Position numbers and translations under genes: made by a program | NCBI GenBank assembly: GCA_021741645.1 | Contig: JAIOXK010000010.1 | Span: 1-35,395, forward strand | From: Candidatus Nanopelagicales bacterium | GTDB lineage: Bacteria > Actinomycetota > Actinomycetes > S36-B12 | DNA: 35,395 nucleotides | Direction: 5' to 3' | In this document: positions 14,682 through 18,641 of the stretch, piece after piece | Layout: every line of letters starts with the position of its first letter | Position numbering within the stretch: position 1 is the stretch's first letter | Notes under the pieces: model-generated | The model's input: only the letters and a program-made list of their open reading frames with translations | Databases searched by the model: none | What the model was told of the DNA's origin: nothing

Positions 14682-14761
14682 AACACTCGAACGAGAGATT
14701 TCCTGAAAGTGGCCGGATCGTGCTAACGTGGTAGCAGTCACCGCGACGGCGACCGCTCATT

Positions 14762-14803
14762 GACGAGCAAGAACCTCGATCAGACGAGCAAGAACCTCGA
14801 TCA
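14762..14803. repeat. Exact 21-bp tandem duplication
   Basis: gacgagcaagaacctcgatca x2, immediately upstream of ORF 14820..15047. Confidence 0.92.
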
Positions 14804-14819
14804 GGAGAGCAGGTGCGAC

Positions 14820-15047
14820 ATGAACCTCCCCTTCCTCAGGCGCGACCGGCACCTCACTGCCCTGCATCCGCCACTGCATGACCAGCGCCATCAGGTCTCC
14901 TCCACCTTCAGTTACGGCCGATGCCGGTTCGTTCTCGAGTGCTCGTGCGGTGCCGAATTCGACACCCCCTACATCGACGAGGCCCTCGAGATCCGCGAGC
15001 TGCACGAGCGGCTCGGGCCGCTGGCCGACGAGATGGCCGCTCTGTAG
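14820..15047 (+). CDS. Small uncharacterised protein (75 aa) with CRFVLECSCGAEFDTPYIDEA motif
   Basis: ATG at 14820 with AGGAG upstream at 14803-14807; ORF track gives longer TTG-start version from 14760. Confidence 0.65.
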   Translation: MNLPFLRRDRHLTALHPPLHDQRHQVSSTFSYGRCRFVLECSCGAEFDTPYIDEALEIRELHERLGPLADEMAAL

Positions 15048-15055
15048 CCAAGGCC

Positions 15056-15083
15056 GCTCCACACTCGACGCTCCACACTCGAC
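15056..15083. repeat. Exact 14-bp tandem duplication
   Basis: gctccacactcgac x2, read directly. Confidence 0.9.
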
Positions 15084-15120
15084 GAAGGTCCCCCTCAGCA
15101 CCCGCTGACGGGGACCTTCG
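15082..15120 (+). terminator. Rho-independent-like hairpin between the small ORF and the SQR gene
   Basis: CGAAGGTCCCC...TCAGC-ACCC-GCTGA...GGGGACCTTCG; long stem, no strong T-tract. Confidence 0.65.
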
Positions 15121-15182
15121 TCATCTCAAGTCCCGCACTTCGACCCCACGGCGGACCCGGGTTGGGGTGCCACCATCGAGAC

Positions 15183-16433
15183 ATGAAGAAGCTGCTGATC
15201 CTCGGCGGGGGAACCGCCGGAACCATCGCCGCCAACAAGCTGCGGCGCAAGCTGTCCGCGACTGACTGGGAGATCACCGTCGTCGACGCGGATGACAACC
15301 ACAGGTACCAGCCCGGGTACCTCTTCCTGCCCTTCGGCACCTACAAGCCATCGCAGATCACCAAGAGCCGCCGCAAGAACCTCACCAAGGACGTGCCCCT
15401 CGTCTACGGGGAGATCGATCGCGTCGAGGCTGACGAGAACGCGGTGCTCCTCACCGATGGCCGACGTCTGGACTACGACGTCCTGATCATCGCCTCCGGC
15501 GTCACGCCACGCCCTGATCAGACCGACGGCATGACCGGTGACCAGTGGGGCGACAGCGTCCACGAGTTCTATACCTACGAGGGCTCCGTGGCCCTGGCCA
15601 AGAAGCTCGAGACCTGGCCCGGTGGCCGCCTCGTCATCAATATCGTCGAGATGCCGATCAAGTGCCCGGTCGCACCCCTGGAGTTCGCCTTCCTCGCCGA
15701 CTCCTTCTTCAAGGACAAGGGCATGCGAGACAAGGTCGAGATGACCTACGTGACGCCGCTGCCCGGCGCCTTCACCAAGCCCATCGCGGCTCAGGCCTTC
15801 GGCAACACGCTGGAGGAGAAGGGCATCGCCGTCGAACCCGACTTCATGCTCATGGAGGTCGACAACGAGAAGAAGGCTCTTGTCTCGTATGACGAGCGCG
15901 AGGTTCCCTTCGACCTGCTCGTGACCATCCCCCTGAACATGGGCGCCGACTACGTCGCCAGGTCCGGTCTCGGCAACGAGATCAACCTCGTGCCGGTGGA
16001 CAAGTTCACCCAGCAGGCCAAGGCCCACGCGAACATCTTCGCCCTCGGCGACGCCAACGACATCCCGGCCTCCAAGGCCGGCTCCGTGGCGCACTTCGAG
16101 ATCGACATCTTCGTCGAGAACTTCCTGGAGTACATCCAGGGCAAGGAGATGACCCACAGGTTCGACGGGCATGCCAACTGCTTCATCGAGACAGGCGGCA
16201 AGAAGGCGATGCTCATCGACTTCAACTACGACTGGGAGCCGCTTCCCGGCAAGTACCCCGTCGCCGGCATCGGTCCCATGAGCCTGCTCAAGCAGACGCA
16301 TCTGAATCACATCGGCAAGCTCGCCTTCCGCTGGATGTACTGGAACATGCTCATCCCCGGCCGACCCATGGGGCTGCCGCCGCTGATGTCGACGTCCGGC
16401 AAGCGAACCGACCTGGTCACCGCCGAGAAGTAG
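15183..16433 (+). CDS. Sulfide:quinone oxidoreductase-like FAD flavoprotein
   Basis: LLILGGGTAGTIAANKL FAD motif; RYQPGYLFLPFG; IKCPVAPLEFAF and HANCFIE cysteine motifs; NIFALGDANDIPASKAGSVAH. Confidence 0.85.
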   Translation: MKKLLILGGGTAGTIAANKLRRKLSATDWEITVVDADDNHRYQPGYLFLPFGTYKPSQITKSRRKNLTKDVPLVYGEIDRVEADENAVLLTDGRRLDYDVLIIASGVTPRPDQTDGMTGDQWGDSVHEFYTYEGSVALAKKLETWPGGRLVINIVEMPIKCPVAPLEFAFLADSFFKDKGMRDKVEMTYVTPLPGAFTKPIAAQAFGNTLEEKGIAVEPDFMLMEVDNEKKALVSYDEREVPFDLLVTIPLNMGADYVARSGLGNEINLVPVDKFTQQAKAHANIFALGDANDIPASKAGSVAHFEIDIFVENFLEYIQGKEMTHRFDGHANCFIETGGKKAMLIDFNYDWEPLPGKYPVAGIGPMSLLKQTHLNHIGKLAFRWMYWNMLIPGRPMGLPPLMSTSGKRTDLVTAEK

Positions 16434-16494
16434 GCGACGACCACACACCAGCAATCACGACACACCCAAGACCCGATCAAGCAAGGAGAACGAG

Positions 16495-16809
16495 ATGCCC
16501 ACCACCACCATCAACGGCCACGACGTCACCGTCGACGACGAGGGCTTCATGACCGTGTACGACGAATGGGACGAGGACACCGGCAAGGCGCTCGCCGAGG
16601 CCATCGGTGTCGACATGACCGACGAGCACTGGCAGGTCATCCGCTTCCTGCGGAATGACTTCAAGGATCAGGGCGCAACGCCCACCATTCGCCGCGTCTC
16701 GACTGCCGGCGGCGTCGACACCAAGAAGCTGTTCCAGCTCTTCCCCAAGAAGCCGGCCAAGAAGATGGCCTACATCGCAGGCCTTCCCAAGCCTGCCGGC
16801 TGCGTCTGA
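16495..16809 (+). CDS. DsrC/TusE-family sulfur carrier protein
   Basis: WDEDTGKALAEAIGVDMTDEHWQVIRFLRNDF and C-terminal AYIAGLPKPAGCV; AAGGAGAA RBS. Confidence 0.92.
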   Translation: MPTTTINGHDVTVDDEGFMTVYDEWDEDTGKALAEAIGVDMTDEHWQVIRFLRNDFKDQGATPTIRRVSTAGGVDTKKLFQLFPKKPAKKMAYIAGLPKPAGCV

Positions 16810-16821
16810 GAGGCCAGGACA

Positions 16822-17331
16822 ATGACTGCAACGCAGGACATGCTCGTCCCGTCATTCGATGACGAGGTCGAGACCGGTCGCAAGCTCGCCATCATCATCT
16901 CCAAGGGCAGCCTGGACATGGCCTATCCAGGCCTGATCCTCGGCAATGCCGCGCTGGGTGAGGGTGTGGAGGTGGAGCTCTTCTTCACGTTCTGGGGATT
17001 CGACATCATCACCAAGGGGCGCATGGAGCACCTGAAGTTCTCGCCCGTCGGCAACCCCGCGGCTCACATCCCCGCAGCCCTGGCGCCGATCCCCGGCATG
17101 ACGTCGATGGCAACGCACATGATGCACAAGTCCCTGGAAGAGTTAGAGATCCCCGACGTGCCCGAGTTCCTCGAGCTCGTCAAAGCCTCGGGGGCGCGGA
17201 TCTGGGCCTGTCGCCTCAGTGCCGACATGAACCACCTGTCGGCAGACGACCTGTGGGATGGGGTCGACGGCATCATCAACGCCAGCGACTTCATCGAGAT
17301 GACGGACGGTGCGCAACTGCTCTTCATCTGA
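16822..17331 (+). CDS. DsrE/DsrF/DrsH-like (DsrE2-type) sulfur-transfer protein
   Basis: KLAIIISKGSLDMAYPGLILGNAALGEGVEVELFFTFWGFDII and GARIWACRLSADMNHL. Confidence 0.85.
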   Translation: MTATQDMLVPSFDDEVETGRKLAIIISKGSLDMAYPGLILGNAALGEGVEVELFFTFWGFDIITKGRMEHLKFSPVGNPAAHIPAALAPIPGMTSMATHMMHKSLEELEIPDVPEFLELVKASGARIWACRLSADMNHLSADDLWDGVDGIINASDFIEMTDGAQLLFI

Positions 17332-17358
17332 AGGGCGAGTCGATCCGCGATGGAGCGG

Positions 17359-17388
17359 GAGCGCGGTTGCTACTCAGCGACCGCGCTC
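17359..17388. terminator. Hairpin between convergent genes (bidirectional terminator-like)
   Basis: GAGCGCGGT-TGCTACTCAGCG-ACCGCGCTC; loop contains the TAG stop of ORF 17370..18641. Confidence 0.6.
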
Positions 17389-18641
17389 TCGGCCTCCTCG
17401 GGGGTCATGCCCTCGTCGATCTCGGTGTCGACGATCTGCTCATCGACAGCTGGGTTCTGGGGAGCTTCGCCCTCAACTCCTGGCACTGTGACCTTCAGCG
17501 GCAGGAAGGTCTGCACCCGGATGGGCTCGGGCAGCGGCGTGACCCCGAACGTCTCAAGAGCGCCCTGTCCGGCCAACCGGACGACGTACTGCGTGAAGGC
17601 TAGAGCGCCCGGGTCTTCGGGCGCATCGCAGGTAAGCAGGTGCGACACGCCATTCACCGGCCACCCGACGAGAGGCTGTCCGTCGCCGAGCACGATCTTG
17701 GACGAGGCGACATCAAAGTTGCCCTCGACTGGCACGCCACCCACAGCAGGACTGGCGAACATGCTGCCCGTATCCGGGTCTGTGGTGATGCTCATGGCCC
17801 CTGAGCCCACCTTGTACAACTGAACGTCGTCAGCCGTGACCACGAGCTCACTGCCATCGTCCAAGGTCACGGGGAGATTCGCGGTGGGGATCACATTCGT
17901 GAACGATTGGAATACCGGCATGACGCTGATCGCGCTCTCAACGAGAGTCAGCTCAGAGATCAGGTCCATCGATGTGGGGAACGTCTGGCCGCCGTCGAGG
18001 GTCTCCACGGTTCCCGCGGGCCACTCCTGCGGCACCTCGTTCGCAAGCCAGGTCGTCATGGCCTGCACCGCACCGCTCGGACCCTCTAACTCCATGAGCG
18101 CGAACTCCGGCAGCAGCGTGAGATCGAAGTCGGGATTGGCCTCCACGATCAGCGGGTCCTCCCACGATGTGATCGTGCCGTTCAGAATCCCGGCCACGAT
18201 GGTGGGCGTCATGACGATGCCCTCCAGACCGATGACGTTGTAGGCCATCGAGACGGGGTAAGCGAAGATCGGCACCACGATGGTCTCGCCCGTACTGCAG
18301 TTGTCTGCGGCGAACGAGTCGATGACGTCCTGACCTGGCGTGCGATCAACCAGAGCCACCGGTGCGGGATCGGACTGCGGCACCTCGATGACTGTCGTCT
18401 CGGGGCAGACCCCGCTGAACGCCATCCCCACGGCGTCCATGGAGCCGGCGAAAGCCTCAGGGACGGCCACCTGCACCTCACCGGGCACGCACACGATCGA
18501 CGATTCCGCCTGAGCTGCAAGTACGTCGGGCGGAAGCGGCGGGGTACACGCCGCGACCGTGACCACTGCTGCACCCAGAAGAGAGGTGAGGACGACGCCT
18601 CGGGTCTTGACGGACTGCCGAGACATCGTCCTCACCTTCAT
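17370..18641 (-). CDS. PstS-like substrate-binding lipoprotein
   Basis: Lipobox TVAAC; NGTITSWEDPLIVEANPD, EGPSGAVQAMTTWL resemble PstS fold segments; adjacent to pstS. Confidence 0.75.
   Translation of the reverse strand: MKVRTMSRQSVKTRGVVLTSLLGAAVVTVAACTPPLPPDVLAAQAESSIVCVPGEVQVAVPEAFAGSMDAVGMAFSGVCPETTVIEVPQSDPAPVALVDRTPGQDVIDSFAADNCSTGETIVVPIFAYPVSMAYNVIGLEGIVMTPTIVAGILNGTITSWEDPLIVEANPDFDLTLLPEFALMELEGPSGAVQAMTTWLANEVPQEWPAGTVETLDGGQTFPTSMDLISELTLVESAISVMPVFQSFTNVIPTANLPVTLDDGSELVVTADDVQLYKVGSGAMSITTDPDTGSMFASPAVGGVPVEGNFDVASSKIVLGDGQPLVGWPVNGVSHLLTCDAPEDPGALAFTQYVVRLAGQGALETFGVTPLPEPIRVQTFLPLKVTVPGVEGEAPQNPAVDEQIVDTEIDEGMTPEEAESAVAE

Follow-up and report, generated by a model that had tools for sequence, protein, structure and literature searches.

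The presence of DsrC is usually taken to indicate the dissimilatory sulfite reductase pathway, and in Escherichia coli the TusBCD-TusE relay delivers sulfur drawn from IscS via TusA to tRNA. In Allochromatium, persulfurated DsrEFH passes its sulfur to DsrC-Cys111, the penultimate cysteine and sole sulfur-binding residue of DsrC, while the upstream DsrC cysteine occurs in organisms with DsrAB and is replaced elsewhere with few exceptions (Stockdreher et al., PMC3397948). A large sediment survey counted more SQRs of type III than of any other type (1,814 of 2,593), and adding sulfide there raised sqr transcript levels in several groups, Actinobacteriota, Bacteroidota and Verrucomicrobiota among them (PMC12345210). 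For an operon joining SQR, DsrC and DsrE2, we found no description in the openly searchable full-text literature, a scope that leaves most subscription papers outside. We analyzed such a gene trio, hereafter the cassette, in a 35,395-nucleotide stretch of DNA from Candidatus Nanopelagicales bacterium (assembly GCA_021741645.1, contig JAIOXK010000010.1). This stretch, the window, is the entire contig C21 of a 2.39 Mb genome that comprises 157 contigs and is 83.7% complete.

Three adjacent genes for sulfur handling

A preliminary description of the window, made from the letters alone, had recognized three consecutive plus-strand genes of the SQR, DsrC and DsrE2 families, flanked by hairpins and next to ppa. 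Profile matches above cut-off in Pfam or NCBIfam bore out the three families, both hairpins were recovered, and ppa does lie upstream of the trio. The features are as follows.

15081-15122, + strand: hairpin upstream of sqr, its arms 19 nt long (z -8.0)
15128-15140, + strand: AAGTCCCGCACTT, short inverted repeat upstream of sqr (upstream alignment, read by eye)
15183-16433, + strand: SQR, type III, 416 aa (NCBIfam NF049943 and predicted fold)
16495-16809, + strand: DsrC/TusE-family carrier, 104 aa (PF04358 and TIGR03342)
16822-17331, + strand: DsrE2-like sulfur-transfer protein, 169 aa (PF13686 and predicted fold)
about 17356-17391, no strand: G+C-rich hairpin downstream of dsrE2 that overlaps the convergent gene at its end (z -4.0)

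The genes are separated by 61 bases (SQR to DsrC) and 12 bases (DsrC to the DsrE2-like gene). Between ppa and sqr lies a small ORF (14760-15047, + strand) with a conserved CRFVLECxCG stretch, which is present also at loci L033 and L040 and had no match in Pfam or NCBIfam. The contig opens (1-38) with a perfect 17-bp inverted repeat around a 4-base loop; no plasmid match was found for the window, and a plasmid origin was rejected on this ground.

The first protein is a type III SQR. Its match to NF049943, the type III model of NCBIfam, reaches 624 bits (cut-off 525). It carries the FAD motif G8-x-G10-x-x-G13 with G8, G10 and G13 invariant, and holds the redox cysteines C161 and C333, which are kept in 81 of 81 sequences; the start M1 is conserved in relatives. 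Its AlphaFold model (pLDDT 92.2) predicts an SQR fold: the nearest solved structure is human SQR (TM 0.86, 23-24% identity), followed by other SQRs, all ranking ahead of type II NADH dehydrogenases. The enzyme probably oxidizes toxic hydrogen sulfide with reduction of quinone. At locus L149 (2229-3317), an SQR gene has an in-frame TGA exactly at the C333 position, with a two-cysteine DsrC adjoining on the opposite strand; the TGA probably encodes selenocysteine, as expected of a redox position, and this fits the 'selenoprotein subtype' in the name of NF049943. The SQR frame of one cassette (L152, 1877-2995) is broken by an in-frame TAA, reflecting either a pseudogene or a sequence error. The window's genome also encodes a second SQR-like flavoprotein with an adjoining transporter (contig C140; L051, 5656-6849), which reaches 225 bits against the type III model and thus falls under the cut-off.

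The DsrC-family protein matches PF04358 with 115 bits (cut-off 24.9) and TIGR03342 with 88 bits (cut-off 53.5). Residue alignment to solved DsrCs identified the penultimate cysteine C103 (CysA) only, the CysB position not being a cysteine. By its domain match and penultimate cysteine, the protein belongs to the TusE/DsrC superfamily; with CysB missing and dsrAB not found in the 83.7%-complete genome, it is not DsrC sensu stricto, the partner of DsrAB. The same pattern extends to the relatives, with CysA in 80 of 80 cassette DsrCs and CysB in 0 of 80, so DsrCs of this kind are not expected to act as classical DsrAB partners. Two-cysteine DsrCs, found at loci L133-L151 in other Actinomycetota, lie outside the SQR-DsrC-DsrE2 cassette. 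An additional DsrC copy upstream of SQR at L021 (1082-1393) ends in ADGS, without the sulfur-binding cysteine.

The third protein matches PF13686 with 104 bits (cut-off 25) and scores 103 bits against the NCBIfam SulfCarrDsrE2 equivalog, under its cut-off of 210, and is therefore named DsrE2-like here; the score points to a distinct DsrE2-like subgroup. Besides the DsrE2 domain, it has the conserved active cysteine, C130 in a WAC motif, kept in 78 of 78 readable sequences. An N-terminal cysteine, C26, occurs in 66 of 80 relatives, and the window's protein has I26 instead. Among solved structures, 2qs7 and 3pnx from the DsrE family come nearest to its predicted one (pLDDT 85.1).

Flanking hairpins and upstream DNA

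Neither hairpin has a U-tract, and a terminator pattern scan found none at either place, so the hairpins were rejected as intrinsic terminators; an Rfam search likewise found no match to a known RNA element. The hairpin at 17356-17391 is the boundary of the SQR-DsrC-DsrE2 unit. On the other side, the 3′ arm of the upstream hairpin is GGGGACCTTCGTC, followed by AAGTCCCGCACTT (together 15110-15140 in the window). Exact copies of GGGGACCTTCGTC occur upstream of sqr in close relatives, at six other loci (L010, L012, L017, L038, L040 and L053), which represent at most four genomes, L010 and L038 coming from one and L012 and L040 from another; statistics for this sequence come from a shuffle count within the window. 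Where spacing was read, GGGGACCTTCGTC stands about 60 nt before the sqr start codon with a AAGTCCCGCACTT-like sequence next to it, and an alignment read by eye showed AAGTCCCGCACTT to be partly conserved at similar spacing upstream of sqr in genus relatives. This recurrence, together with the AAGTCCCGCACTT-like sequence, suggests that the upstream hairpin motif does more than terminate transcription and has a regulatory role; AAGTCCCGCACTT is a candidate operator or promoter element.

Conservation across genomes

A GTDB scan seeded with the window's SQR, in a survey of relatives without Pseudomonadota, yielded at least 590 confirmed relatives, the best 80 of which were kept. Among these best 80 of at least 590, the order SQR, DsrC, DsrE2 on the same strand was found in 79, the 80th contig ending after SQR; chance adjacency was rejected because of this conservation. 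The same best 80 of at least 590 come from Actinomycetota, Bacteroidota, Chloroflexota, Verrucomicrobiota and Deinococcota, and include Nocardioides, Intrasporangium, Terrabacter, Actinoplanes, Acidimicrobiia, Cyclobacteriaceae, Psychroserpens, Pelagicoccus, Thermoflexus and Trueperaceae, and the true spread of the cassette may be wider. Since the 80 loci are ranked by identity to the window's SQR, the survey would overlook SQRs further away that lack the cassette, and such SQRs may exist. Within the window's order, a cassette-type SQR is present in 25 of 59 genomes, with DsrC and DsrE2 beside it in the same arrangement in all 24 whose contig allows the check.

Counting the window, the cassette occurs as the bare trio (47), with an HTH regulator upstream plus a DUF1641 protein between SQR and DsrC (21), with the DUF1641 protein alone added (8), or with the regulator alone added (4). 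The HTH regulator upstream of SQR was seen at L034, L039, L049 and L050 and at 25 of the 80 named loci; its sensory part resembles PocR weakly, three of its cysteines are largely conserved (22, 24 and 22 of 25), and it is a candidate sulfide or persulfide sensor. Neither persulfide dioxygenase nor rhodanese was seen among the recurrent neighbors of the 80 loci (best of at least 590). Distance matrices of the three cassette proteins correlate at 0.61-0.81, compared with a null maximum of 0.27, a correlation that common descent of the hosts could also explain.

Sulfur genes in the rest of the genome

The preliminary description had pointed out that dsrAB or sHdr elsewhere in the genome would turn the trio into part of a dispersed known pathway; dsrAB did not emerge from the window's own genome, the 59 relatives or the 30 cassette genomes, nor sHdr from the window's own genome. 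A family search of the 83.7%-complete genome gave no match to the NIR_SIR domain, and dsrA exceeded its cut-off in none of the 59 relatives and none of the 30 cassette genomes; weak dsrA matches in the latter (24-48 bits versus a cut-off of 393, mostly in long frames) are most likely assimilatory reductases. CCG domains in the window's genome were confined to one 739-aa ORF, and the paired HdrB-type CCG subunits expected of sHdr were not found there. With no NIR_SIR domain and a single CCG ORF in the 83.7%-complete genome, and no dsrA above cut-off in the 59 and 30 genomes, a dispersed classical Dsr or sHdr pathway was rejected.

The reported lack of tusA and rhodanese was a statement about the window only, and as such it stands; both families are present elsewhere in the same genome, at a second sulfur locus.

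5182-11827 of contig C48 (L052): DsrE2, TusA, Fe-S/NrfD fusion, molybdopterin oxidoreductase and a divergent rhodanese-MBL fusion

The DsrE2 of this contig-48 locus occurs in 19 of the 59 relatives, 12 with the cassette and 7 without; of the 25 relatives that bear the cassette, 13 lack the locus, and some of these genomes are incomplete. Since the cassette often occurs without it, the cassette does not depend on that locus. The apparent isolation of the cassette is partly produced by the limits of the window: the module is neither unique nor isolated, being shared by several phyla and accompanied in this genome by the second locus, though it is frequently found without that locus. TusA was detected in 20 of the 30 cassette genomes and was absent from 10. 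A rhodanese-PDO fusion with a similar domain order is found in cable bacteria, where it is called uncharacterized (PMC13047784).

Proposed mechanism and alternatives

We consider it probable that the three genes form one functional unit in which sulfide oxidation is coupled to a protein-bound sulfane-sulfur relay. The analysis shows the linkage of the genes, their conservation, the cysteine pattern, the predicted folds and the lack of dsrA in the genomes searched; for the enzyme's activity, the order of transfer and the sink, we infer the following scheme. As a monotopic membrane flavoprotein, the SQR would oxidize H2S at C161 and C333 and deliver two electrons to the quinone pool by way of FAD, both steps being taken from its family. 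The sulfane sulfur would then leave onto C130 of DsrE2 rather than onto a small thiol, and move on to the C-terminal C103 of DsrC, as suggested by the transfer from DsrEFH to DsrC in Allochromatium. DsrC would act as a one-cysteine carrier like TusE rather than as a substrate of DsrAB or DsrMK, because CysB is missing. The sulfur sink presumably lies outside the operon: here the locus with TusA, DsrE2 and the rhodanese-dioxygenase-like protein is a candidate, and other hosts would have to use a different acceptor. A module for sulfide oxidation and persulfide relay without DsrAB, much as the preliminary description proposed, is still the best reading, direct transfer from SQR being the conjectural part; the description had left open whether DsrC or DsrE is the direct acceptor, and the Allochromatium precedent (PMC3397948) favors DsrE2 to DsrC over DsrC first. 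The wider proposal, a widespread mode of sulfide oxidation in which a type III SQR directly loads DsrE2 and then a DsrC with one cysteine, these proteins taking the place of glutathione, coenzyme A or free polysulfide as acceptors, is one we advance tentatively, as a serious possibility that falls somewhat short of probable. If true, bacteria without DsrAB would gain a dedicated protein-persulfide exit route from SQR.

Alternatively, the SQR alone might make soluble polysulfide or a low-molecular-weight persulfide (of mycothiol in Actinomycetota), with DsrC and DsrE2 supplying biosynthesis of tRNA 2-thiouridine through MnmA, the part played by TusE in E. coli, or of cysteine or cofactors. The presence of CysA only is the TusE condition, and TusE hands sulfur from TusBCD to MnmA (PMC3397948); sulfide-derived sulfur could also matter for assimilation in a genome with no sulfite reductase domain, although this absence comes from an 83.7%-complete genome. 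A housekeeping tRNA step would be oddly patchy at 25 of 59 genomes of the order, and no biosynthesis gene was seen to recur beside the cassette at the 80 loci (best of at least 590). We judge this reading unlikely; if it were true, the operon would tie sulfide capture to assimilation and not to detoxification.

Full oxidation by dispersed genes, running from SQR over DsrE2/DsrC, next over TusA with the second DsrE2, and on through the rhodanese-MBL (persulfide dioxygenase-like) fusion to sulfite and through the membrane molybdoenzyme to sulfate, would make use of the genes grouped on contig 48 of the same genome. It is also in keeping with Intrasporangium calvum and Nocardioides sp. T2.26MG-1, in both of which about 0.7 kb of the same contig separates TusA from a full-length rhodanese-MBL fusion. 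However, 13 of the 25 cassette-bearing relatives have no contig-48 locus, 7 relatives have the locus and no cassette, a full-length fusion was found in only 2 of 30 cassette genomes, and the molybdoenzyme, whose nearest solved structures are arsenate and thiosulfate reductases, could act as a reductase; we find this pathway quite improbable. Finally, DsrC and DsrE2 might be regulatory or protective partners that sense or quench excess persulfide with no onward carriage. Both are small single-cysteine proteins, and the HTH regulator with three conserved cysteines stands beside many cassettes, but that same regulator already provides a separate one, and neither DsrC nor DsrE2 has a DNA-binding domain match in Pfam or NCBIfam, which leaves such a role very improbable indeed.

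Comparison with known systems

The component proteins are known, and their fixed combination in bacteria without DsrAB appears to be undescribed in the openly searchable literature. Because DsrC is a fixed SQR partner in many bacteria without a DsrAB pathway, DsrC alone is unfit as a marker of that pathway, and annotation is correctable in hundreds of genomes. The natural acceptor of type III SQRs becomes a testable question that now has a concrete candidate.

The SQR subtype of cable bacteria is of the same type III, and by our own reading its C159 and C339 correspond in place to C161 and C333 here; those bacteria have a full Dsr pathway, and no DsrC-DsrE2 operon with SQR is described in the accessible part of the report (PMC13047784). 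The Bacillus licheniformis yrkD-nreBC-sqr-pdo and Staphylococcus cst systems resemble the cassette in combining, in a heterotroph, SQR with a DsrE homologue as sulfane-sulfur carrier, but they include TusA, rhodanese and persulfide dioxygenase as well as regulators of their own, with no DsrC described in the part of that source available (PMC9918477). The persulfide dioxygenase and rhodanese that mark the cst and yrk operons are missing from the cassette, the rhodanese-MBL fusion lying on another contig. Closest in the transfer itself is Allochromatium vinosum, where a DsrE-family donor with an active cysteine likewise serves a DsrC acceptor with a penultimate cysteine; the cassette differs by a single DsrE2-like protein in place of DsrEFH, a DsrC without CysB, no DsrAB and the link to SQR (PMC3397948). 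In TusBCD-TusE of E. coli, too, a DsrE-family donor feeds a DsrC-family acceptor that has one cysteine, whereas in the cassette the DsrC/DsrE2 pair is tied to SQR.
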